A DNA stretch of 45,249 nt from the NCBI GenBank assembly GCA_027450185.1, contig DAIDKF010000017.1:1-45249 (forward strand), read 5' to 3'. A model generated the notes under the pieces. That model saw only the letters and a program-made list of their open reading frames with translations. It searched no databases and had not been told where the DNA came from. The position numbers were made by a program, and so were the translations under genes. The stretch is from Granulicella sp. Its GTDB lineage: Bacteria > Acidobacteriota > Terriglobia > Terriglobales > Acidobacteriaceae. This document shows, one piece after another, positions 28,683 through 38,946 of this stretch (position 1 is the stretch's first letter; the number at the start of each line of letters is the position of its first letter).

Positions 28683-31496
28683 TTGCCCCAACTGATCGAC
28701 TCAAAGCAACTCCAATCGCCCGCCTGGGGTCGTCGTCTCCTCATCCTGGTCGCGGTTCTCATCCTCGCGGCCATCTTCGCCAGCAGCACCCTCCTCTCCT
28801 CCTGGGTCAATCTCCTCTGGTTCTCCTCTCTCGGTTACGCCGGCGTCTTCTGGAAGATGATCACTCTCCAGGCCGGCGTCTTTGCCGCCTTCACTCTTCT
28901 CACCTTTCTCATCCTCTTCATCGCCTTCACCGCCCTCCGCCGCACCCATCGGGCCGACCTTCCCAGCGCCCACGCCATCGTTCTCAACGGCCAGACCATC
29001 AACCTCTCCGTCGAGCCCGTCCTGCGCATCGGCTCTCTCATCGCCGCCATCATCTTTGCCTTGTTCAGCGGTGTCACCATCATGGTCGACTGGCCCACGC
29101 TCGCCCTCTTCTGGTACGCTCCCGCATCCGCCGCCGGTCTCGCCGACCCCATCTTCAACAAGCCCCTCAGCTTCTATCTCTTCACCCTCCCCGCCTGGGA
29201 TCTGCTCAACGACTGGCTTCTCACCCTCGCTCTGGTGCTCTGCGCCGCCGCCGCCGTCTACTTCATCATCACCAGCAGCACCCGCGCACTCGACAAAACC
29301 CGCACCGGCGTCTTCCAGTCCCCCTGGCGCGGCCTCTCCGCCGCCCTGTCCTTTCTCCTGCTTGTCGTCGCCAGCATGGTCTACGTCAGCCGCTTCCAGT
29401 CCCTCTTCGATCACCACACTCTCTTCGACGGAATCTCCTACACCGACGCGCACATCACCATCCACGGCCTGCTGCTCGTCTCCCTCGCTCTCGTCCTCGG
29501 AGCCGTCATCGCCGCCGTCAACGCCGTCCGCAACCCCCGCGCCCGCCTCATCGCCGCCTCCATTCTTCCCGCCGCCATCTGCTACATCGGCCTCGGCATC
29601 ATCGGCTGGTACGTCGGCAACTTCGTCGTCAAGCCCAACGAACTTGTTCGCGAGACGCCTTACATCGCCCATAACATTCAGAGCACCCGCGAGGCCTTCG
29701 GTCTTGACCGCTTTGTCCGGCGCGAGTTTCCCGCTGAAACCACCATCGACGCCGCCGACCCCTCCAACAACCAGCCCACACTCCAGAACATTCGTCTCTG
29801 GGACTGGCACGCCCTCCAGGACACCCTCCGTCAGGTTCAGGAGATCCGCACCTACTACGACTTCCCCGACATCGACATCGACCGCTACAGCATCAATGGT
29901 GCCACCCGCGAGGTCATGCTCGCCGACCGCGAGCTTAACGTCGACAAGCTCCCCGTCAGCAGCCGCAACTGGATCAACGAACGCCTCACCTACACCCACG
30001 GCTACGGCGTCACCATGAACCCCGTCAACGGCTTCACCTCTGAAGGTCTGCCTCTCTTCCTGCTCAGCAACATGCCCGTCCAGAGCACCACCCCCAGCCT
30101 CTCCGTCACCCGTCCCGAGATCTACTTCGGCGAGCTCACCAACACCGACGTCTACGTCAACACCCACCAGCAGGAGTTCGACTACCCGCAGGGCCAGGGC
30201 AACAACTTCACCTCCTACCACGGCACCGGCGGCATCGTCCTCGGCAGCTTCATCCGCCGCCTGCTCATCGCCATCGACCGCGGCGACCTCGGCAAACTCC
30301 CCTTCAGCGACGACATCACTCCCCAGAGCCGTCTCCTCATGCGCCGTACCATCCGCGACCGCGCCGCTGCTCTCGCTCCCTTCCTCACCTTCGACCGCGA
30401 CCCCTACATGATCGTCGGCGACGATGGCCGGCTCTCCTGGATCATGGATGCCTACACCACCTCAGACTCCTACCCCTACTCCACCCACTACTCCCTCGGC
30501 GACAACTCCGTAAACTACATCCGCAACAGCGTCAAAGTCGTCCTCGACGCCTACAACGGCTCCGTCACCTTCTACGCCTTCGACCCCTCAGACCCCATCC
30601 TCGCCGCCTACCGCCGCATCTTTCCCGCACTCTTCAAAGATGCCTCCCTCATGCCCGCAGACCTCCGCAGCCACATCCGGTACCCCGAGGACATCTTCAC
30701 CCTCCAGTCCGACGTCTACGGCCTCTACCACATGACCGATCCCGAGGTCTTCTTCAACCGCGAGGACCTCTGGACTGTCGCCACCGAGACGGCCCCTGAC
30801 GCCGACGGCAACCAGGCCGTCCAACCCATGAAGCCCAACTTCGTCCTCATGAAGCTCCCCGGCGGCGCCTCCGAGGAGTTCGTAGAAATCCTCCCCTTCA
30901 CCCCCGCCAACCGCAACAACCTCATCGGCTGGATCGCAGGCCGTTGTGACGGCTCCAAATACGGCACCGCCGTTGTCTATGACTTCCCCAAATCTCGCCT
31001 CGTCGACGGCCCGCAACAGATCGAGGCCCGCATCGACCAGAACGCCCAGCTCTCCGGCCAGCTCACACTCTGGAACCAGCAGGGTTCCCACGTCCTGCGT
31101 GGCAGCTTGCTCGTCATCCCCACCGGCAAGGCCCTGCTCTACGCCGAACCCATCTACCTCCAGGCCCAGCAATCCCCCATGCCCGAGCTTCGCCTCGTCG
31201 TCCTCGCCCTTCAGGACAAGCTTGCCTACGGTCCCACCTTCCAGTCCGCCCTGGCCTCGCTCTTCGGCGGCGAACTCTCCTCACTCACCTCCGCCGAACC
31301 CGCTCAACCCGTCGCCACATCCAGCACCCCCCGGGCCACCCCTCCCTCCGCCAGCCTCAACGACCTCATCAACCAGGCCAGCCGCGACTTCGACGATTAC
31401 CAGCGCCTGACCGCCGCCGGCAAGCTAGGCGAGGCCGGCCAGAAACTGGACGCCCTCAAGCAAGTTCTCAACCAACTCAACGCCCACCCCCACTAG
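28683..31496 (+). CDS. UPF0182 family membrane protein
   Basis: A 937-residue protein of the UPF0182 (COG1615) family of unknown function. About seven membrane segments fill residues 1-320 (for example RLLILVAVLILAAIFASSTLL, and SAWV/NLLWFSSLGYAGVFW near 40-57). A large soluble domain follows with family stretches such as GYGVTMNPVNGF, PEIYFGEL, DITPQSRLLMRRTIRDRAAALAPFLTFDRDPYMIV and WIMDAYTTSDSYPYS. It starts at TTG 28683 with CGGAGGA seven bases upstream, which outweighs the rare codon. The tail (about 845-937) is Pro/Ser/Ala-rich and then helical. Codon use is strongly C-biased, which keeps long false frames open on both strands. Confidence 0.9.
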   Translation: MPQLIDSKQLQSPAWGRRLLILVAVLILAAIFASSTLLSSWVNLLWFSSLGYAGVFWKMITLQAGVFAAFTLLTFLILFIAFTALRRTHRADLPSAHAIVLNGQTINLSVEPVLRIGSLIAAIIFALFSGVTIMVDWPTLALFWYAPASAAGLADPIFNKPLSFYLFTLPAWDLLNDWLLTLALVLCAAAAVYFIITSSTRALDKTRTGVFQSPWRGLSAALSFLLLVVASMVYVSRFQSLFDHHTLFDGISYTDAHITIHGLLLVSLALVLGAVIAAVNAVRNPRARLIAASILPAAICYIGLGIIGWYVGNFVVKPNELVRETPYIAHNIQSTREAFGLDRFVRREFPAETTIDAADPSNNQPTLQNIRLWDWHALQDTLRQVQEIRTYYDFPDIDIDRYSINGATREVMLADRELNVDKLPVSSRNWINERLTYTHGYGVTMNPVNGFTSEGLPLFLLSNMPVQSTTPSLSVTRPEIYFGELTNTDVYVNTHQQEFDYPQGQGNNFTSYHGTGGIVLGSFIRRLLIAIDRGDLGKLPFSDDITPQSRLLMRRTIRDRAAALAPFLTFDRDPYMIVGDDGRLSWIMDAYTTSDSYPYSTHYSLGDNSVNYIRNSVKVVLDAYNGSVTFYAFDPSDPILAAYRRIFPALFKDASLMPADLRSHIRYPEDIFTLQSDVYGLYHMTDPEVFFNREDLWTVATETAPDADGNQAVQPMKPNFVLMKLPGGASEEFVEILPFTPANRNNLIGWIAGRCDGSKYGTAVVYDFPKSRLVDGPQQIEARIDQNAQLSGQLTLWNQQGSHVLRGSLLVIPTGKALLYAEPIYLQAQQSPMPELRLVVLALQDKLAYGPTFQSALASLFGGELSSLTSAEPAQPVATSSTPRATPPSASLNDLINQASRDFDDYQRLTAAGKLGEAGQKLDALKQVLNQLNAHPH

Positions 31497-31831: not shown

Positions 31832-32176
31832 ATGCCCGACTCTCTACGCCGCTTCAAAGCCGACATCTTCCAGGCTCTGGCTCATCCTACGCGTATTGCA
31901 ATCATAGACTTACTGGCAACAGGGGAGCTCTCCGCCGGCGATCTGATGGAGCGACTTGGCATGGAGCAGGCCAACATCTCCCAGCATCTCGCCATCCTTC
32001 GCGCCAAAAAGCTGGTCACCAACCGCAAATCGGCTAATAAAGTCTTCTATTCGGTCAAAGATCCCCTGATCATCGAAGTCTTAGCCATTATGCGTAAGTA
32101 CTTTCAGAACAATCTTAAAGAATCACACGAGCTTCTGCATGAGCTCGACAGCGCCCACTCCGAGGTCACCCCATGA
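31832..32176 (+). CDS. ArsR-family winged-helix transcriptional regulator
   Basis: A 114-residue winged-helix protein: FQALAHPTRIAIIDLLATGELSAGDLMERLGMEQANISQHLAILRAKKLVTNRKSANKVFYSV covers the recognition helix (about 45-57) and wing (about 62-75). It contains no cysteine, so the classic arsenic/cadmium Cys sites are absent. The C-terminal helix has H99, H103 and H109 next to Glu/Asp, which could form an alpha-5 type metal site or be incidental. A perfect inverted repeat overlaps its promoter. It lies 97 bases ahead of the hydrogenase-like operon on the same strand, making it a candidate regulator of that operon. The effector is unknown. Confidence 0.88.
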   Translation: MPDSLRRFKADIFQALAHPTRIAIIDLLATGELSAGDLMERLGMEQANISQHLAILRAKKLVTNRKSANKVFYSVKDPLIIEVLAIMRKYFQNNLKESHELLHELDSAHSEVTP

Positions 32177-32273: not shown

Positions 32274-34319
32274 TTGTCCGTAATGGCCCACCCGTGGATG
32301 ACCTCCGGAATCGTAACGACCGTGTCCACCCACGGCCTCCATCTCCTTCTGTGGCTGACGCTGGCCTGGCTCATTCTTGGCGTATTCGCACTCATCCGCA
32401 TCCACAGCCTCCCGTTCGCCGCACGTCTATTTCCTCTCGGTGCCATTGTCTGTCTAAGCATTGCGCTGATGGCATCTATCATGCTCATTACAGGCAGTTT
32501 GCCTCAGGTGGCGATTCTCCCGCTAGGCCTTCCCAACCTGCCATTCCACGCTCGCCTCGACACCTTGTCAGCATTTTTTCTCCTGCTCTTAGGGGTGTCC
32601 GGTGCCGGAATCTCAATCTTTGCCGGCGGCTACTTTCGCCACAGTCATGGCACTGCTCCAGGCCTGCTTTGTCTGCAATATCATATCTTTCTGGCCAGTA
32701 TGGCCTTGGTGACCCTCGCCGATGACGCCTACTTCTTCATGGTGGCCTGGGAGACGATGGCCCTCAGTTCGTACTTCCTGGTGACCGCGCAGCATCGGTT
32801 TGCAGAAGTTCGCCGCGCCGGTTTCCTCTATCTCCTTATGGCCCATCTCGGCGCCATCTGTATCCTATTGAGTTTCGGCGTTTTACAGGGAGGGCGATGG
32901 CAGTTCACCTTTGAGGCAATGAGGTCCGCAGCTCTCTCGCCTGCATGGGCCAGCGCCGCCTTCCTGCTCGCCCTGGTCGGTTTTGGAACCAAAGCAGGCC
33001 TCGTTCCCATGCATGTTTGGCTTCCTGAGGCTCATCCCGCAGCGCCCTCGCCCGTATCCGCCATGATGAGTGGTCTGATGCTTAGCACCGCAGTCTACGG
33101 TATGCTTCGTATCGCATTCAATTTGTTGCACATACGCTATTGGTGGTGGGGAGTGCTGATACTCGCACTTGGACTGTTCTCTGCGCTGTACGGAGCGGTC
33201 TTTGCCGCTGTCCAGACCGACATGAAGCGTCTACTCGCCTATTCATCGATCGAAAACATCGGCGTCATCTTCACCGGCATTGGTTTGACCATTCTCTTCG
33301 ATGCCTCACATTTACCTTTGTTTGCCTCACTTGCGCTCTCAGCCGCACTCATCCACGCACTCAATCACTCTATCTTCAAGAGTCTACTGTTTCTCACAAC
33401 GGGTTCGGTTCTGCATGCAACGAACCAGCGAAGCCTCGGCAAACTAGGTGGCCTGATTCGGAGCATGCCGTGGGTCGCCACGCTGGCTTTGGTAGGCACG
33501 CTAGCCATTGCAGGCCTTCCGCCGCTCAATGGCTTCGTCTCTGAGTGGCTACTGCTGCAATCGTTTCTTTACACCCCGCTGATTCCACATGCTTTTCTTA
33601 ACATGTTGATTCCATTGGGAGCAGCAGTGTTGGCGCTCACTGCGGCGCTAGCCGCCTACGTGATGGTGAAGTTCTACGGCGTGATCTTTCTTGGTCAGCA
33701 TCGTGAACCTTCATTGGAGCACGCACACGATGCAGACTGGTTGGAGCGCATCGGCCTGACGTGGCTGGCGCTCGGGTGCCTTACGATCGGCGTGTTGCCG
33801 CAACTTGTTCTGCGTGCGGCTGGGGCTGTTACAGGTACGCTACTGGGACAGACAGTCAACCTCGGGTCGCTATTTGGACTATTGGCTCCGATCTCTCCCA
33901 AGCAAGCCTCCTACAGCGGTTTGGTGCTGCTAGCTGGGATCTTCGTGGTTGTGGGGATTACTTTCATCGTGGTGCGAGCTCTTGCTCATGGGCGCATCCA
34001 GCGCACGGCTCCATGGGACTGCGGATACCCCTGGCAGACTTCGCGCATGCAGGATACGGCGGAGGGCTTTGGGCAGCCAATTCGTCACATATTTGGGACA
34101 TTCTTTGGCATGGAGAGGGAACTGCCTTCGCCGGATGATTCTGCTCCGCAGTATCGAATCCGCATCGAGGACCGTATTTGGGGAACGCTCTATCAGCCAA
34201 TTACTCGCAATGTGCAGCGGCTTGCGGACTGGATTGGGTTGCTACAGGGTGGCCGGTTACCCATCTACCTGCTCTATAGCTTTCTCACCCTGATCGCATT
34301 ACTGGTATTTGTCTTATGA
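32274..34319 (+). CDS. hyfB: HyfB/NuoL-like antiporter-type subunit
   Basis: A 681-residue, very hydrophobic proton-translocating subunit related to HyfB/HycC and complex I NuoL/M, with about 15 membrane segments. Key family stretches are FFMVAWETMALSSYFLV (conserved Glu), FGTKAGLVPMHVWLPEAHPAAPSPVSAMMSG (conserved Lys and His), QTDMKRLLAYSSIENIGVIF and ALNHSIFKSLLFLTTGSVLH. Start choice is open: TTG 32274 lies seven bases after GGAGG, while ATG 32283 lies ten bases after a second GAGG. It is the first gene of the six-gene operon and overlaps hyfC by four bases (ATGA). A TTGACG box at about 32208 could belong to its own promoter. Confidence 0.88.
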   Translation: MSVMAHPWMTSGIVTTVSTHGLHLLLWLTLAWLILGVFALIRIHSLPFAARLFPLGAIVCLSIALMASIMLITGSLPQVAILPLGLPNLPFHARLDTLSAFFLLLLGVSGAGISIFAGGYFRHSHGTAPGLLCLQYHIFLASMALVTLADDAYFFMVAWETMALSSYFLVTAQHRFAEVRRAGFLYLLMAHLGAICILLSFGVLQGGRWQFTFEAMRSAALSPAWASAAFLLALVGFGTKAGLVPMHVWLPEAHPAAPSPVSAMMSGLMLSTAVYGMLRIAFNLLHIRYWWWGVLILALGLFSALYGAVFAAVQTDMKRLLAYSSIENIGVIFTGIGLTILFDASHLPLFASLALSAALIHALNHSIFKSLLFLTTGSVLHATNQRSLGKLGGLIRSMPWVATLALVGTLAIAGLPPLNGFVSEWLLLQSFLYTPLIPHAFLNMLIPLGAAVLALTAALAAYVMVKFYGVIFLGQHREPSLEHAHDADWLERIGLTWLALGCLTIGVLPQLVLRAAGAVTGTLLGQTVNLGSLFGLLAPISPKQASYSGLVLLAGIFVVVGITFIVVRALAHGRIQRTAPWDCGYPWQTSRMQDTAEGFGQPIRHIFGTFFGMERELPSPDDSAPQYRIRIEDRIWGTLYQPITRNVQRLADWIGLLQGGRLPIYLLYSFLTLIALLVFVL

Positions 34320-35269
34320 GTGCGATAACCATAGTCCGTCAGCTCAGTGAAGTGGTGTTGGCTATCGCCATTGCACCGCTGTTTGGAGGCTGGATAGCGC
34401 AATGCCGTGCGTGGTTGCAGAGCCGGACAGCACCGCCCTTGATCCAGCCATACCGCATGCTGCGGAAGCTGTTTCATAAGGACGCGGCACTAGCTACTAC
34501 CGCATCACCACTATTCCGGATGACGCCCTACATTCTGTTCGGGACCATGGTCCTGGCAGCTGCGATTATTCCCTCCATCGCGACAGATTTGACGTTTGCG
34601 CGGGCAGCAGATGCGATCGCACTGATCGGCTTGTTTGCCACCGCACGCGTCTTTCAATCGCTCGCGGCAATGGATATTGGCACAGCATTCGGTTCGATGG
34701 GCGCGCGCCGCGACATGATGATCGGATTTCTCGCAGAGCCGGCTCTATTGATGGTATTGTTCAACGCGTTTCTGCTATCGGGAAGCACGGCTCTGCCTAG
34801 TGTTGTGGATGTTCGGACGATGCATTCGTTCTTCGTTGACCCGAGTCTGCTCTTTGCCGCGATAGCGTTTCTGATGGTTCTACTAGCCGAAAATGCACGT
34901 ATTCCTATCGATAATCCCGCAACCCATCTTGAACTCACCATGATCCACGAAGCCATGGCCTTGGAATATTCCGCACGGCATCTGGCGTTGCTCGAGTGGG
35001 CTGCGAATTTGAAGCTCTTCAACTACGCCTGTATTGGCTTCGCTCTCTTCCTGCCATGGGGCATCGCAACGCAAGGCAGAGATGGCGGTGTGGCGCTAGC
35101 TGTGGCCGTAGGCGCGTTGCTGGTGAAGCTCGTGTTGGCGGGAGCGGTGCTGGCACTGATAGAGGCGTTGTCGGCCAAACTGCGTATTTTTCGAGCCCCG
35201 GAATACTTGGCCATCTCGTTTCTGCTCGCTGTGCTGGGGTTGCTCGTCCACCTGTTGTTGGAGGCATAG
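34316..35269 (+). CDS. hyfC: HyfC/HycD/NuoH-like membrane subunit
   Basis: A 317-residue membrane protein with about eight helices, matching the HyfC/HycD (NuoH-like) family that links the peripheral arm to the membrane arm. Diagnostic parts are PLIQPYRMLRKLFHKDA near residue 40, AMDIGTAFGSMGARRDMMIGFLAEPALLM at about 118-145, and ENARIPIDNPATHLELTMIHEAMALEYSARHLALLEWA at about 190-225, where the acidic residues near the quinone or proton entry lie in related proteins. The ATG overlaps the hyfB stop. hyfE follows after five bases with GGAGG in between. Confidence 0.9.
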   Translation: MSAITIVRQLSEVVLAIAIAPLFGGWIAQCRAWLQSRTAPPLIQPYRMLRKLFHKDAALATTASPLFRMTPYILFGTMVLAAAIIPSIATDLTFARAADAIALIGLFATARVFQSLAAMDIGTAFGSMGARRDMMIGFLAEPALLMVLFNAFLLSGSTALPSVVDVRTMHSFFVDPSLLFAAIAFLMVLLAENARIPIDNPATHLELTMIHEAMALEYSARHLALLEWAANLKLFNYACIGFALFLPWGIATQGRDGGVALAVAVGALLVKLVLAGAVLALIEALSAKLRIFRAPEYLAISFLLAVLGLLVHLLLEA

Positions 35270-35274
35270 ATCCA

Positions 35275-35940
35275 ATGCATTCGCCATATATGATCACCGG
35301 AGTATTAAATCTGCTGGCAGCGAGCCTCCTGCTTATCTCCTTTGCAATGCTGTCGCGGCGGCGCACACAGCGCTTGATTACGCTCTTCGCCTGGCAGGGC
35401 GTGGTGCTCTTTGCGTCAACTTGTCTCGTAGGCTATCGGGCTGACTTAACAGAACTCTATTATTCCGCCGCACTGACGCTTCTGTTGAAAGTAATCGCTT
35501 TGCCATGGATACTCCATCGCCTGATCCATCGCCTGGGTGTTCAGTGGGACAGCGAACCTCTGGTTAATATCCCCGCCACCATGCTCGTAGGTTTAGGGCT
35601 GGTTATCTTCGCCTTTGGTCTAGCCCAGCCAATCAGTCGCATGGCTACGACAATTACGCGCAACACCATAGGCATTGCTCTCGCGGTCATCTTCCTTGCC
35701 TTTCTAATGATGATCACTCGCCGCAGGGCTATTACACAGGTGATTGGATTTCTCGCCATGGAAAATGGTCTATTCTTCGCTGCAACGAGCGCAACGTATG
35801 GCATGCCTATGGTGATCGAGTTAGGCATTGCCCTCGATCTCCTAATCGGGTTCTTCATACTGGGTATATTTTTCTTCCAGATCCGCGAGCAGTTCGACAG
35901 CCTCGATCTCAGCAACATGGAATCTCTCAAGGAGGAATGA
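35275..35940 (+). CDS. hyfE: HyfE-like membrane subunit
   Basis: A 221-residue protein with about six membrane helices resembling HyfE, a NuoK-related subunit of the Hyf and related complexes that E. coli Hyc lacks. Typical segments are LFAWQGVVLFASTCLVGYR, TLLLKVIALPWILHRLIHRLGVQ and RRAITQVIGFLAMENGLFFAATSATYGMPMVIELGIALDLLIGFFILGIFFFQIREQFDSLD. The ATG at 35275 has GGAGG about 11 bases upstream; the frame is open further back but overlaps hyfC. Its presence marks the complex as Hyf/Ehr-like rather than Hyc-like. Confidence 0.88.
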   Translation: MHSPYMITGVLNLLAASLLLISFAMLSRRRTQRLITLFAWQGVVLFASTCLVGYRADLTELYYSAALTLLLKVIALPWILHRLIHRLGVQWDSEPLVNIPATMLVGLGLVIFAFGLAQPISRMATTITRNTIGIALAVIFLAFLMMITRRRAITQVIGFLAMENGLFFAATSATYGMPMVIELGIALDLLIGFFILGIFFFQIREQFDSLDLSNMESLKEE

Positions 35941-35941
35941 A

Positions 35942-37396
35942 TTGGAGATACTGATCATTCTGGGTTTGCCGCTGCTGGGAGCGCTCTTGTTAGCACTGTT
36001 CGGTCCACAGCGTTTTGCCGCAGATCTAAATGCCGGGATAAGTATGGTCACGCTGATTGCCGTCGTATTCCTGGTTATGCGCGTGCTTCAACACGGATCG
36101 ATTCTGGCTCTACATGAACAGTTCTTTGTAGATTCGTTTAATGTCTTTCTGGTTGCACTCACGGCCTTTGTCGGATTCACCACTGCGCTCTTTTCACGGC
36201 CGTACATGCGGATTGAAGAGCAGCGCGGACGTCTTAATGCAGTCAGGCTTCGCCTCTATCACAGCATGTACCAAGTCTTTATGGCCGCGATGTTTCTCGC
36301 ATTGCTGACAAACAATATGGGCCTGCTGTGGGTGGCGATGGAAGCAGCCACACTCTCCACAGTCTTATTAGTCTCGCTCTATCGCACGCGTGCCAGCCTG
36401 GAGGCTGCTTGGAAATACTTCATTCTGTGTGGAGTGGGTATTGCGCAGGCGCTCTTTGGAACAATTCTTCTCTATTTGGCAGCAGAACACGTTTTAGGGC
36501 GCGAGGGAATGACGGCTTTATTGTGGACACACCTGAATGCCGTGAAGGGGGAACTCGAACCCAGAGTGCTTGGGCTGGCCTTTGTCTTTCTGCTGGTGGG
36601 TTATGGAACCAAAGTCGGGCTCGCTCCACTGCACAATTGGTTGCCTGATGCCCACGCCGAAGGTCCAACACCAGTCTCCGCAGTGCTCTCCGGACTGCTT
36701 CTGAATGTTGCACTCTATGCTGTTATCCGCTGCAAGATCCTGGTCGAAGGATCTATTGGCACCTATCTTCCTGGCCATATGCTCATGGGTTTTGGCCTGC
36801 TTTCCGCAGTATTTGGTGCTTTTTTTCTGTGGAGACAGCGCGATATCAAGCGGCTCTTTGGGTACTCTTCGATCGAGCACATGGGTATTATTACGTTCGC
36901 CTTTGGGATTGGGGGGTCGATCGCAAACTTTGCAGCGTTGCTCCACATGACGGTTCACTCACTCACCAAGTCATCCATCTTCTTTGCTGCTGGCCACGCA
37001 TCGCAAACCGCCCAGACACAGCAAATGGATGGTATTCGTGGTCTGGCGAGCATTAGTCCGACGATCGGGTGGGGGCTGATGCTCGGCTCTCTTGCGATTC
37101 TCGGCATGCCACCATTTGGAGTATTCGCCAGTGAGTTTCTGATCTTGACTACCGCCATGCGCGAACATCCATGGACGACGCCCTTGCTGCTGATCGCCCT
37201 CGGCGTCGCATTTGCGGCCATCTTCCGTAAGGTCCAGCCAATGGTCTTTGGAGACAGCGATGCGCCGCCACTTTCGCATTCTCCAGCGCTGATTCCCGTA
37301 TTTCTTCACCTTGCGATCGTATTAATGCTGGGTGTCTATATCCCGTTCGTGCTTGCGGAGTGGTACCGGGCGGCATCACTGCTGATTGGAGGATGA
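35942..37396 (+). CDS. hyfF: HyfF/NuoN-like antiporter-type subunit
   Basis: A 484-residue, about 14-helix proton-channel subunit of the HyfF/NuoN type. Family stretches are MGLLWVAMEAATLSTVLLVSLYRTRASLEAAWKYFILCGVGIAQALFG, GYGTKVGLAPLHNWLPDAHAEGPTPVSAVLSG and RQRDIKRLFGYSSIEHMGIITFAFG, holding the conserved Glu, Lys and His of the channel. The start is TTG 35942, one base after the hyfE stop, with AGGAGG about ten bases upstream. Together with HyfB it gives the complex two full antiporter-type pumps. hyfG starts two bases after the stop. Confidence 0.9.
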   Translation: MEILIILGLPLLGALLLALFGPQRFAADLNAGISMVTLIAVVFLVMRVLQHGSILALHEQFFVDSFNVFLVALTAFVGFTTALFSRPYMRIEEQRGRLNAVRLRLYHSMYQVFMAAMFLALLTNNMGLLWVAMEAATLSTVLLVSLYRTRASLEAAWKYFILCGVGIAQALFGTILLYLAAEHVLGREGMTALLWTHLNAVKGELEPRVLGLAFVFLLVGYGTKVGLAPLHNWLPDAHAEGPTPVSAVLSGLLLNVALYAVIRCKILVEGSIGTYLPGHMLMGFGLLSAVFGAFFLWRQRDIKRLFGYSSIEHMGIITFAFGIGGSIANFAALLHMTVHSLTKSSIFFAAGHASQTAQTQQMDGIRGLASISPTIGWGLMLGSLAILGMPPFGVFASEFLILTTAMREHPWTTPLLLIALGVAFAAIFRKVQPMVFGDSDAPPLSHSPALIPVFLHLAIVLMLGVYIPFVLAEWYRAASLLIGG

Positions 37397-37398
37397 CA

Positions 37399-38946
37399 AT
37401 GGCAGCGGAAAAGACTGACGAGCAGCAGGTCAAGATGTTCGGAAACTTGGCGTGCAGCCGCATACGCGTTGACCGTGAGGGATGGATCAGTACGGCTGAG
37501 CAACTCAGCGAGTCGGGAGCCCGTCTGCTCACCCTGTGGGGAACGGATGATCGCGATCAGGCTGGCGGTTTTCGCATTGACGCAGCCTACCTGCTCTCGG
37601 ATAGTGTGCTCGTAGTCGAGCATAGGATGGTGGATGAAGGGGAGCCATGGTATCCGAGTCTAGCCGGCTTATTTCCAGTTGCACTGCGCATGCAGCGCGC
37701 TGCTTATGACTTATTGGGAATCTCCACCAATGAGAGCGATGATCGCGGTTGGCTGCGTCATGGTGGCTGGCCGCAGATGGTCTTTCCCCTGCGGCGTGAT
37801 GTCGATGGAAGCCAGCAGTATCCCGTTGTGTCGCAACCCTACTCGTTCGTTTCGGTAGAGGGAGATGGGGTGCATGAAATCTCCGTTGGGCCTGTCCATG
37901 CTGGAACGATTGAGCCAGGCAACTTCCGATTTTCGGTTGTCGGGGAGAAGGTGCTGCGGTTGGAAGAACGGCTCGGATACACGCACAAGGGTGTTGCAAA
38001 GCTGTTTGAGAGCCTCACACAGCACACCGGGCATCGATTGGCAGCGCGCGTCTCAGGTGATTCCGCGATTGCCTTTTCGTGGGCGTACTGTGCTGCGCTG
38101 GAGGCCATCACGACAACAACATGCTCTGCCCGAGCCCTTGCACTCCGTGCTCTTGCACTGGAACATGAGCGGCTCGCAAATCATTTGGGGGATCTGGGAT
38201 CTCTCGGCAACGATGCGGGCTTTGCCTTCGGGTTCACACACTTCTCGAAGCTGAAAGAGGACTTGCTGCGTGCCAACAGCGTCGTGTTCGGGGCACGATA
38301 TCTAATGGCGTTTGTCGTACCTGGAGGGGTTGCGGCTGACCTGAATACGGAAGCGCGGAGCCTGCTGCTTGAACTATATGATGCCTTGGAGACCTCGGTC
38401 ATCAACTTACGCACTATCTACGATAATCACGCAGGATTGCAGGACCGCTTCCGAGAGGCGGGACGACTGGACCGTAGCACCGCGAAGCGATTGGGGGCGA
38501 TTGGTTTAGCGGGACGCGCATCAGGTCTCGCCTGCGACCTGCGCGTTGACCACCCATGGGCTCCGTATACGTCGCTTGCCGTAACCATGATGACGCAGAA
38601 GGGGGGCGACGTTGCGGCGCGAGTGCAAATCCGCTTCGATGAAGTCGTCGAGTCCCTGCGACTGTGTCGTGCGCTGCTCACGGAGAATGATTCCGGAGTG
38701 ATCCAGGCGACCGTGCCCACGGCACAATCGAATCAACTTGGAATGGGAATCATCGAAGGCTGGCGTGGTCCCGTAGCGGTTGTTCTGGAGACGGGGAGAG
38801 ATGGGGGTATTCATCGTTGTCATACGCATGACCCTTCGTGGCAGAACTGGCCACTCATCGAGCACGCCATTATTGGCGATATCGTGCCGGACTTTCCGCT
38901 AATCAACAAGTCTTTTAACCTGTCCTACAGCGGACAGGACGGGTGA
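37399..38946 (+). CDS. hyfG: Hydrogenase-like large subunit lacking NiFe cysteines
   Basis: A 515-residue homologue of HyfG/HycE: a NuoC-like N-terminal part (about 1-160) and a NuoD/hydrogenase large-subunit part (about 170-515). HycE-like landmarks remain: LALEHERLANHLGDLG, DNHAGLQDRF..GRLD and GLACDLRVDHPWAPYTSL. The NiFe ligand motifs are lost. The RVCGICG motif of HycE corresponds to RVSGDSA (S219, S222), and the C-terminal DPCYSC to NLSYSG (S509, G512). The protein also ends three residues later, so there is no maturation tail. It should not bind NiFe or make hydrogen, and fits the energy-converting-hydrogenase-related (Ehr) group. GGAGG lies six bases before ATG 37399. Confidence 0.88.
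   Translation: MAAEKTDEQQVKMFGNLACSRIRVDREGWISTAEQLSESGARLLTLWGTDDRDQAGGFRIDAAYLLSDSVLVVEHRMVDEGEPWYPSLAGLFPVALRMQRAAYDLLGISTNESDDRGWLRHGGWPQMVFPLRRDVDGSQQYPVVSQPYSFVSVEGDGVHEISVGPVHAGTIEPGNFRFSVVGEKVLRLEERLGYTHKGVAKLFESLTQHTGHRLAARVSGDSAIAFSWAYCAALEAITTTTCSARALALRALALEHERLANHLGDLGSLGNDAGFAFGFTHFSKLKEDLLRANSVVFGARYLMAFVVPGGVAADLNTEARSLLLELYDALETSVINLRTIYDNHAGLQDRFREAGRLDRSTAKRLGAIGLAGRASGLACDLRVDHPWAPYTSLAVTMMTQKGGDVAARVQIRFDEVVESLRLCRALLTENDSGVIQATVPTAQSNQLGMGIIEGWRGPVAVVLETGRDGGIHRCHTHDPSWQNWPLIEHAIIGDIVPDFPLINKSFNLSYSGQDG

Follow-up and report, generated by a model that had tools for sequence, protein, structure and literature searches.

Ehr-type complexes are built from group 4 large and small subunits without the residues that bind the nickel-iron (NiFe) centre, and they are described as having no assigned function (PMC6349859, PMC10284858, PMC4378227). 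A group 4 complex of Nitrospira is described in similar terms (PMC12542776), and the group 4 genes of N. moscoviensis are reported not to be expressed on H2. A role in pH homeostasis has been suggested for ehrABCDLS of Methylacidiphilum (PMC6688271), in Geobacter the Ehr subunits reached higher levels on formate than under conditions that included hydrogen (PMC7894505), and a complex of formate dehydrogenase with Ehr has been proposed (PMC6349859). The hyfBCEFGI genes of At. ferrooxidans were classified as non-hydrogenase by HydDB; a role with formate is mentioned for them, and the group 4 subunits were not identified on H2 (PMC7735108). In M. tuberculosis, transposon screens predicted three genes of the hyc locus to be essential (PMC3087520). 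The MBS complex of P. furiosus, in which two of the four cysteines are missing, uses its proximal cluster to reduce polysulfide (PMC7684303). We found no assay of a purified Ehr-type complex in the open-licence literature, and met nothing there on a graded ferredoxin domain or on four-cysteine intermediates, neither of which was the aim of a search.

Here we describe a complex of this kind encoded on a 45,249-nucleotide stretch of Granulicella sp. DNA (contig DAIDKF010000017.1, the whole of which is hereafter called the window). Its large subunit, HyfG, had been singled out in a first-pass annotation as a hydrogenase-like protein with all four NiFe cysteines replaced; the same annotation remarked that Ehr-type complexes are known as a class but not by their substrate, which agrees with the literature on them. 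The window complex is an ordinary member of that class (hyfBCEFGI / ehrABCDLS). Judged from its sequence, it lacks the NiFe ligands, the maturation tail and any ferredoxin subunit or domain; it keeps most pumping residues, one four-cysteine [4Fe-4S] site and a proton relay leading to where NiFe once sat; and the emptied site holds a conserved new set of polar residues. The reading that we favor, tentatively and at somewhat less than an even chance, is that the complex translocates ions and is coupled in this to a small polar substrate, bound where the NiFe centre used to be and next to a single [4Fe-4S] cluster.

The large subunit and its emptied NiFe site

HyfG as called has 515 residues (a longer GTG start at 37360 is also in the list of open reading frames, ORFs). 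In a phmmer search of PDB chains its top match was E. coli HycE (7z0s_E, E 4.3e-53, residues 77–513), with Mbh and complex I chains ranking after it, and Pfam recognized Complex1_30kDa and Complex1_49kDa, the latter from residue 272 only. An AlphaFold model (65 aligned sequences, mean pLDDT 84.1, pTM 0.88, with low confidence at residues 1–5 and 148–195) also had HycE as its top PDB match (TMq 0.88); against E. coli NuoCD, TMq was 0.75–0.83.

Alignment with HycE confirmed the replacement of the ligands, the columns of C241, C244, C531 and C534 being occupied by S219, S222, S509 and G512. The early end after the second motif, which the first-pass annotation had read as loss of the maturation tail, was equally clear: only QDG follows G512, compared with 35 residues in HycE and HyfG of E. 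coli. The annotation had left room for real CxxC pairs elsewhere in the protein. We looked for them and found none, the six cysteines forming no such pair, and displaced CxxC ligands were ruled out on this ground and by the superposition of the model on HycE. HyfG of the window thus lacks the four cysteine ligands expected of a group 4 NiFe hydrogenase of the formate hydrogenlyase (FHL)/Hyf kind and, like the large subunits by which Ehr is defined, is without NiFe-binding CxxC pairs.

We scanned one genome per species for relatives and took the best 80 of at least 569 confirmed relatives as a first set, from Acidobacteriota, Rhodanobacter, Dyella, Burkholderia and relatives, Sulfuricella, Gallionella and others; 53 of these 80 loci contain both operon ends with 300 spare bases. 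Of 200 genomes in the order to which the window genome belongs, 53 (that of the window among them) had a homologue at E≤1e-30, in identity bands of about 59–73%, 37–44% and 28–33%, and 20 loci were taken from the two lower bands. Four of the 20 (L097, L101, L102 and L103) have a separate HyfH-like ORF, and their large subunits carry all four cysteines and tails of 30–38 residues, as E. coli HycE and HyfG do. Sixty further loci were added, 40 of them from the order of G200 (six of these 40 are on contigs equal in length to those of first-set loci). With these and six plasmid loci the set came to 171 rows, reduced to 165 when six repeats were dropped: six with HyfH and 159 from operons without a separate HyfH (meaning that none was seen, some loci being incomplete). 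Ligand loss is far beyond chance, because 139 of these 159 distinct large subunits have zero cysteines at the ligand positions; 17 have one, always in the C241 column, and three (L162–L164) have four. All but one of the 159 stop three residues past the last ligand column, the other being L008 with its out-of-frame end.

The pocket was tallied over 82 large subunits, a number that counts both copies of L073 and takes in L008 despite its damage. Position 219 is S in 61, C in 15 and A in 6; position 222 is S in 74, T in 7 and A in 1; position 509 is S in 64, A in 10, N in 6, R in 1 and T in 1; and position 512 is G in 81 and A in 1. The substituted ligand residues are therefore not strictly fixed, and the neighbors that differ from hydrogenases are. 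D221, D265 and W455 (I243, N287 and P477 in HycE) are each found in 82 of 82 rows, N503, K504 and S505 in 81 of 81 aligned rows (one row is gapped, and S505 is Ser in HycE too), and N507 and N261 (D529 and S283 in HycE) are each Asn in 80 of 82, giving the conserved signatures GDS and NKSFNLSYSG. HycE D529 is called strictly conserved in the FHL structure paper (PMC9474812). The changed active site of the first-pass annotation thus stands as a remodelled site, with the correction that the new site consists of the surrounding residues and not of the four substituted ones.

That same structure paper gives D192/E193 as proton donors of HycE and H284, E437, R395 and R478 as relay and canopy residues (PMC9474812). 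In the window family, E172, H262, R373, E415 and R456, the counterparts of HycE E193, H284, R395, E437 and R478, are kept in 82 of 82 rows, and the D192 column is I171 in the window.

The dN/dS ratio of the large subunit was 0.04–0.10 against L004, L007, L009 and L005, rough values given that dS was saturated (2.3–4.5); for HyfI no ratio was computable. Gene decay was ruled out by this purifying selection. Together with the proximal-cluster cysteines, intact in 80 small subunits, and the largely conserved pumping residues of the HyfB, HyfC and HyfF homologues, it bears out the earlier view of a retained machine.

The three relatives with four NiFe cysteines, L162, L163 and L164 (Acidobacteriota genomes G506, G586 and G713), read NKSFELCY[SA]C. 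They share the NKSF signature, the three-residue end without maturation tail and the lack of a separate HyfH; the D529 column holds Glu, and hypD is present in all three genomes. In a tree of 67 rows made without the ligand columns (midpoint root for drawing, no sequence named Ehr in print included), the rows without a separate HyfH, the window among them, formed a 58-row group with support of 100/100, apart from Hyc/Hyf and Nuo. The four-cysteine rows lie inside that group; a tree excluding them from the Ni-free rows was not rejected by the approximately unbiased (AU) test (p 0.166), and the ligand state needs two changes on the tree.

In the order of G200, the genome that contains L052, 79 of 300 genomes gave a match at E≤1e-60; in the phylum, 74 of 297 did so at E≤1e-40, a threshold that also admits true hydrogenases. 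Those relatives that carry an annotation in the records examined are named hydrogenase 4, nickel-dependent hydrogenase or NADH-quinone oxidoreductase. A record of Cupriavidus metallidurans CH34 also bears a homologue. Two loci, L073 (15434–19508) and L137 (2–2305), have a second, more distant operon copy (large subunit 42–43%) beside the first. On an Alicyclobacillus plasmid (L112, 8761–10257) a lone large-subunit-like gene sits among DUF190 and CrcB genes, with no other hyf genes annotated next to it.

Small subunit, membrane arm and neighboring genes

Three of the four cluster ligands of the small subunit HyfI, C58, C61 and C125, are invariant in 80 of 80 small subunits, and C155 is present in 79 of 79 aligned rows. 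Neither Pfam nor a motif check found a ferredoxin domain in the window protein, whose N-terminal part has 57 residues with one cysteine. Because such a domain is missing, one four-cysteine [4Fe-4S] cluster is predicted to be the only redox cofactor of the window complex. The two-cluster ferredoxin subunit HyfH that marks group 4 hydrogenases has no homologue in the window or the first-set loci, where no HyfA-like ORF was found either (E≤1e-6), and HyfH, HyfA and NuoI had no match in the 60 further loci. The first-pass annotation was silent on these electron-input subunits, and their absence extends to the first-set loci. When the window and the 80 loci were scanned for motifs, a pair of ferredoxin motifs turned up in a single ORF, which lies in L009 at a distance of 6.6 kb from the operon.

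The idea that all such operons lack a ferredoxin unit proved wrong, as several carry the unit fused to the small subunit. By patterns devised for this analysis, a ferredoxin domain with two cluster motifs stands at the N-terminus of 13 small subunits (L096, L098–L100, L159, L165–L172) and one with an apparent single cluster in 15 (L087–L094, L104–L106, L111, L162–L164), and 11 from other Ehr-type groups are without cluster motif (L107–L110, L153, L155–L158, L160, L161). Counting the window with its family and adding 40 loci from G200's order (six loci repeated), 114 of 121 small subunits have no domain; the remaining seven are unclear, with no C..C..C motif in the part examined. By Pfam, L172 has two Fer4 stretches and L099 a dicluster domain that exceeds the cut-off; L087 and L106 have sub-threshold ferredoxin matches only, and L164, L153, L052 and the window have none. 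When 64 of the 67 rows were scored on the tree without ligand columns (unclear counted as none, Nuo rows coded as two clusters from general knowledge, L111 and L112 on long branches), 'two clusters' versus 'fewer' took at least four changes and a four-state count at least six. In L104–L106 the small subunit has Asn in place of the fourth cluster ligand, which counts against a universal [4Fe-4S] site.

The group 4 large and small subunits are encoded in one operon with complex I/Mrp-type membrane subunits, the arrangement by which Ehr is defined (Table 1). The gene order B-C-E-F-G-I holds in first-set loci on long enough contigs except L008, where hyfF is in pieces, no separate hyfC was called and the end of hyfG is out of frame. 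The start of hyfB in the window was called as TTG, with an in-frame ATG at 32283. HyfC, HyfG and HyfI match only NuoH, NuoD, NuoB and related models in NCBIfam, all below cut-off.

Most pumping residues of the membrane arm are kept. In HyfB homologues, E160 is found in 63 of 64 rows and K240, K318, H365, K369, E424 and K466 in 64 of 64, K240 standing in the column of HycC Leu208; E141, E192, E206, E212 and H204 of HyfC are present in 67 of 67 rows, and E134, K224 and E398 of HyfF in 74 of 74. The HycD E201 column is His in 67 of 67 rows. The NuoM K265 column is Asn in 74 of 74, E. coli HyfF being alike, and the two glutamates of NuoK have no counterpart in the HyfE homologue, as in E. coli HyfE.

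Table 1. Genes and motifs of the hyf operon region in the window
Feature	Position	Strand	Evidence
ArsR/SmtB-type regulator ahead of operon, no cysteine	31832..32176	+	Pfam HTH_5 2e-13; NCBIfam HTH_metalloreg 9e-27
HyfB-like antiporter-type membrane subunit	32274..34319	+	NCBIfam hydrogenase 4 subunit B, 850 bits (cut-off 667)
HyfC/NuoH-like membrane subunit	34316..35269	+	Pfam NADHdh 7e-29
HyfE-like membrane subunit	35275..35940	+	NCBIfam hydrogenase 4 membrane subunit, 93 bits, below cut-off of 136; no Pfam match
HyfF-like antiporter-type membrane subunit, TTG start as called	35942..37396	+	NCBIfam hydrogenase 4 subunit F, 842 bits (cut-off 543)
HyfG/EhrL-like large subunit without NiFe ligands (S219, S222, S509, G512)	37399..38946	+	Alignment, Pfam, PDB search, model
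Former N-terminal ligand motif, residues 218–222, VSGDS (HycE VCGIC)	38050..38064	+	D221 in 82/82 rows
Former C-terminal ligand motif and protein end, residues 503–515, NKSFNLSYSGQDG (HycE IGSLDPCYSC...)	38905..38943	+	
HyfI/NuoB-like small subunit, ligands C58, C61, C125, C155	38954..39487	+	Pfam Oxidored_q6 1.1e-28, sole match

An ArsR homologue lies just upstream of the operon in 15 of 15 Acidobacteriota loci that reach far enough; the first set has 20 Acidobacteriota loci in all, and the count omits L017 and four contigs that end inside the operon. Upstream of the ArsR gene, the window encodes an unidentified 937-residue predicted membrane protein (28683–31496). We found no constant neighbor partner: apart from ArsR and SulP the neighbors are inconsistent, and their calling was noisy, with long antisense ORFs in GC-rich loci.

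In nine of the 40 loci fetched out of the 79 matching genomes of G200's order (L114, L121, L122, L124, L125, L126, L131, L132 and L133), the gene immediately before the operon, on the same strand and 21–291 bases away, is a SulP-STAS gene. L151 and L152 have weaker SulP matches further upstream, and L171 has one on the other strand. Within the first set, a member of the SulP cluster is upstream in L046, L048, L052 and L073 and downstream on the other strand in L080 (L052 by family scan, the others by sequence cluster), and a SulP gene is downstream of the operon in L089. Examples directly before hyfB are L052 1703–3865, L114 398–2521 and L126 10930–13101, among others; the proteins of L052 (720 aa) and L114 (707 aa) have about 100 extra residues within the transporter domain. 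Four SulP proteins were scanned; the general sulP model accepts three of them, and all four fall far below the BicA cut-off. The housekeeping gene metG is upstream on the same strand in six of those 40 loci (L115, L118, L123, L144, L145 and L148; identified by Pfam in L145 and by sequence cluster in the others), and given this, a plain alternative is that the SulP position may be inherited. No SulP gene was noticed next to the window operon in the ORF list. Five loci of other Ehr-type groups of the window's order (L095, L099, L100, L104 and L106), with the motif SGVDS or AATS, lie near enolase-, dihydroxy-acid dehydratase- and universal stress protein-like genes, named by reading their sequences.

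As to INDEPENDENCE from nickel maturation, a close homologue (>600 bits) is present in 24 of 200 members of the window's order, the window genome included. The 23 others are all at least 90% complete; 17 have hypD and six (G036, G055, G071, G156, G157 and G195; search repeated for three) do not. Since hypD is present in 97 of the 200 genomes, the complex does not avoid hypD genomes; it merely does not need them. The window genome assembly is 54% complete, and the absence of hypD from it carries little weight. Elsewhere it encodes NuoD of complex I twice, in L002 and L003, for which NuoCD is the best match.

What the complex might do

In the scheme that we favor, a complex I-like ion-translocating membrane arm would bear a peripheral arm that is reduced to a single large and a single small subunit. 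A small polar substrate, probably charged or hydrogen-bonding, would bind the remodelled pocket next to the proximal cluster and be protonated or deprotonated via the kept relay of E172, H262, R373, E415 and R456. This protonation step would be coupled through HyfC to HyfB and HyfF, resulting in ion movement. Power would most likely come from the exchange of one electron between the only cluster and a soluble carrier bound at the HyfH position. In favor of the scheme are the constant gene order, the kept relay, the new pocket residues, the invariant cluster ligands, the retention of most pumping residues and the low dN/dS, and MBS of P. furiosus, with its polysulfide reduction at the proximal cluster, sets a precedent (PMC7684303).

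Several observations weigh against this scheme. No electron donor was found in or beside the operon by the HyfH, HyfA and NuoI searches and the small-subunit check, and a one-cluster machine could be non-redox. A HyfA-like ORF does occur at the more distant L092, some 3 kb away from the operon and on the strand of the latter, so that some groups may have a separate carrier. In the membrane arm, the HycC K239 column is Lys in 55 of 64 rows yet Ser271 in the window, the HycC D354 column is Ser387 in the window and Ser or Asn in 63 of 64 rows, and HycD Y102 and E199 are lost. In the large subunit, the canopy Asp529 of HycE is the column with Asn in all but two rows, and E172 of the relay lies within the low-confidence stretch of the model at 148–195. 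Lastly, the window cluster is probably saturated, unlike that of MBS, because its four cysteines keep the hydrogenase spacing. The MBS type is marked by a proximal cluster in which one iron has a ligand other than cysteine, by way of a shortened Cys loop; in the window sequence the C-x2-C spacing is that of HycG and all four cysteines are present. MBS-type cluster chemistry was set aside, as the Cys spacing differs.

Because the electron wire is missing, a non-redox mechanism is a serious rival, if an unlikely one. The complex would then be a secondary or gated ion translocator of the Mrp- or DAB-like kind, with the hydrogenase-like arm as a ligand- or pH-sensing gate and the cluster as a structural element or sensor; control of internal pH and proton-driven uptake of anions or inorganic carbon are examples. 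A DAB-type carbonic anhydrase was also weighed as a reading, with the published DAB2 work as the guide. Such a mechanism fits the variation of the ferredoxin unit between two, apparently one and none, with its at least four changes between two and fewer, the retention of most pumping residues, the pH homeostasis suggested for Methylacidiphilum (PMC6688271), and the SulP-STAS genes directly upstream in nine of 40 loci and downstream in L089. The SulP link is weakened by the metG genes found in the same place in six of those loci, which allow an inherited position, by the lack of a noticed SulP gene beside the window operon, and by the diversity of SulP substrates, the four scanned proteins being far under the BicA cut-off. 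Moreover, the window family shows no variation in its [4Fe-4S] ligands, a constancy that would not be necessary for a purely structural role.

A broader conjecture, to which we give only a minor share of belief, is that window-type Ehr complexes are ion-moving machines that left long-range electron transfer: the ferredoxin wire would have been pared down (two, one, none) while the membrane arm and a remodelled, protonatable pocket remained under strong selection. The drive would then come from the binding of a substrate or from a reaction at the single cluster, perhaps in concert with an anion transporter of the SulP family. If true, this would give a complex I relative without an electron chain.

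A formate-linked role has been proposed for the Ehr of Geobacter, Margulisbacteria and At. ferrooxidans, in which electrons from a formate dehydrogenase are handed on to the membrane; for the window it seems improbable. It accords with the higher abundance of Geobacter Ehr with formate (PMC7894505), the proposed complex of the two enzymes (PMC6349859) and the formate role mentioned for At. ferrooxidans hyfBCEFGI (PMC7735108). No HyfA or HyfH that could serve as a wire was found in the first-set or the 60 further loci, however, and no formate dehydrogenase is among the identified neighbors and annotated plasmid regions, where no search was aimed at the family and most neighbors were left unscanned.

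Slightly more doubtful still is a quinone oxidoreductase of the complex I type, for which the first-pass annotation had suggested inspecting the emptied site. Fold and subunits are common to complex I, and the model resembles NuoCD at the TMq values given above. In the columns of the His and Tyr of E. coli NuoCD, which we take to be the quinone-headgroup pair, all 82 rows have Ile171 and Gly220, and because of this a complex I-like quinone site is unlikely. The canopy Asp column of HycE is Asn as described, and the small subunit has the hydrogenase-type C58-x2-C61, where complex I NuoB carries tandem cysteines.

A hydrogenase that binds NiFe through other ligands, or a decaying gene, is very improbable: one cysteine is kept in 15 of 82 rows and four in three more distant loci, but six of 23 near-complete order members with a close homologue are without hypD, purifying selection is strong, and 158 of 159 rows end three residues past the last ligand column.

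The pocket signature, the graded ferredoxin domain and the three four-cysteine relatives together form a natural series from hydrogenase to something else, one that is testable and bears on how complex I couples chemistry to pumping. Relatives are common, and the cited literature gives no reaction for the class.

Comparison with known systems

The class itself is already known as Ehr or hyfBCEFGI, and the window complex is one more member of it. As described in the literature, Ehr of Methylacidiphilum, Geobacter, Sulfobacillus and Nitrospira resembles the window in combining complex I/Mrp-type membrane subunits with a large and a small subunit, and that of Nitrospira and Sulfobacillus is also reported without NiFe motifs. 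The Ehr-type operons sampled here include forms with a one- or two-cluster ferredoxin domain, whereas the window has none; the named Ehr organisms are likened by description. At. ferrooxidans hyfBCEFGI has the same gene set by name, a likeness that is again one of description only.

E. coli FHL (HycB-G) and hydrogenase-4 share with the window the fold, the subunits, the proton relay residues and the proximal cluster. The window differs from both in having no NiFe ligands, no maturation tail and no homologue of HyfA, HyfH or HyfD in the operon, and its HyfB keeps a Lys where HycC has Leu208. P. furiosus MBS is a relative that is likewise NiFe-less and combines a proximal [4Fe-4S] cluster with an arm that pumps ions. 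It is described as containing three clusters and two of the four cysteines but no proton pathway (PMC7684303), whereas the window has one cluster, keeps none of the four and retains the pathway.

A Rhodococcus plasmid operon has the order I-B-C-E-F-G and ends NKSFNLSYAGNDL. The M. tuberculosis hyc locus is likewise ordered I-B-C-E-F-G. In the Rv0081–Rv0087 region of M. tuberculosis, as in the window, an ArsR-type regulator, Rv0081 (PMC6177252), stands beside the hyc locus, Rv0082–Rv0087 (PMC3087520).

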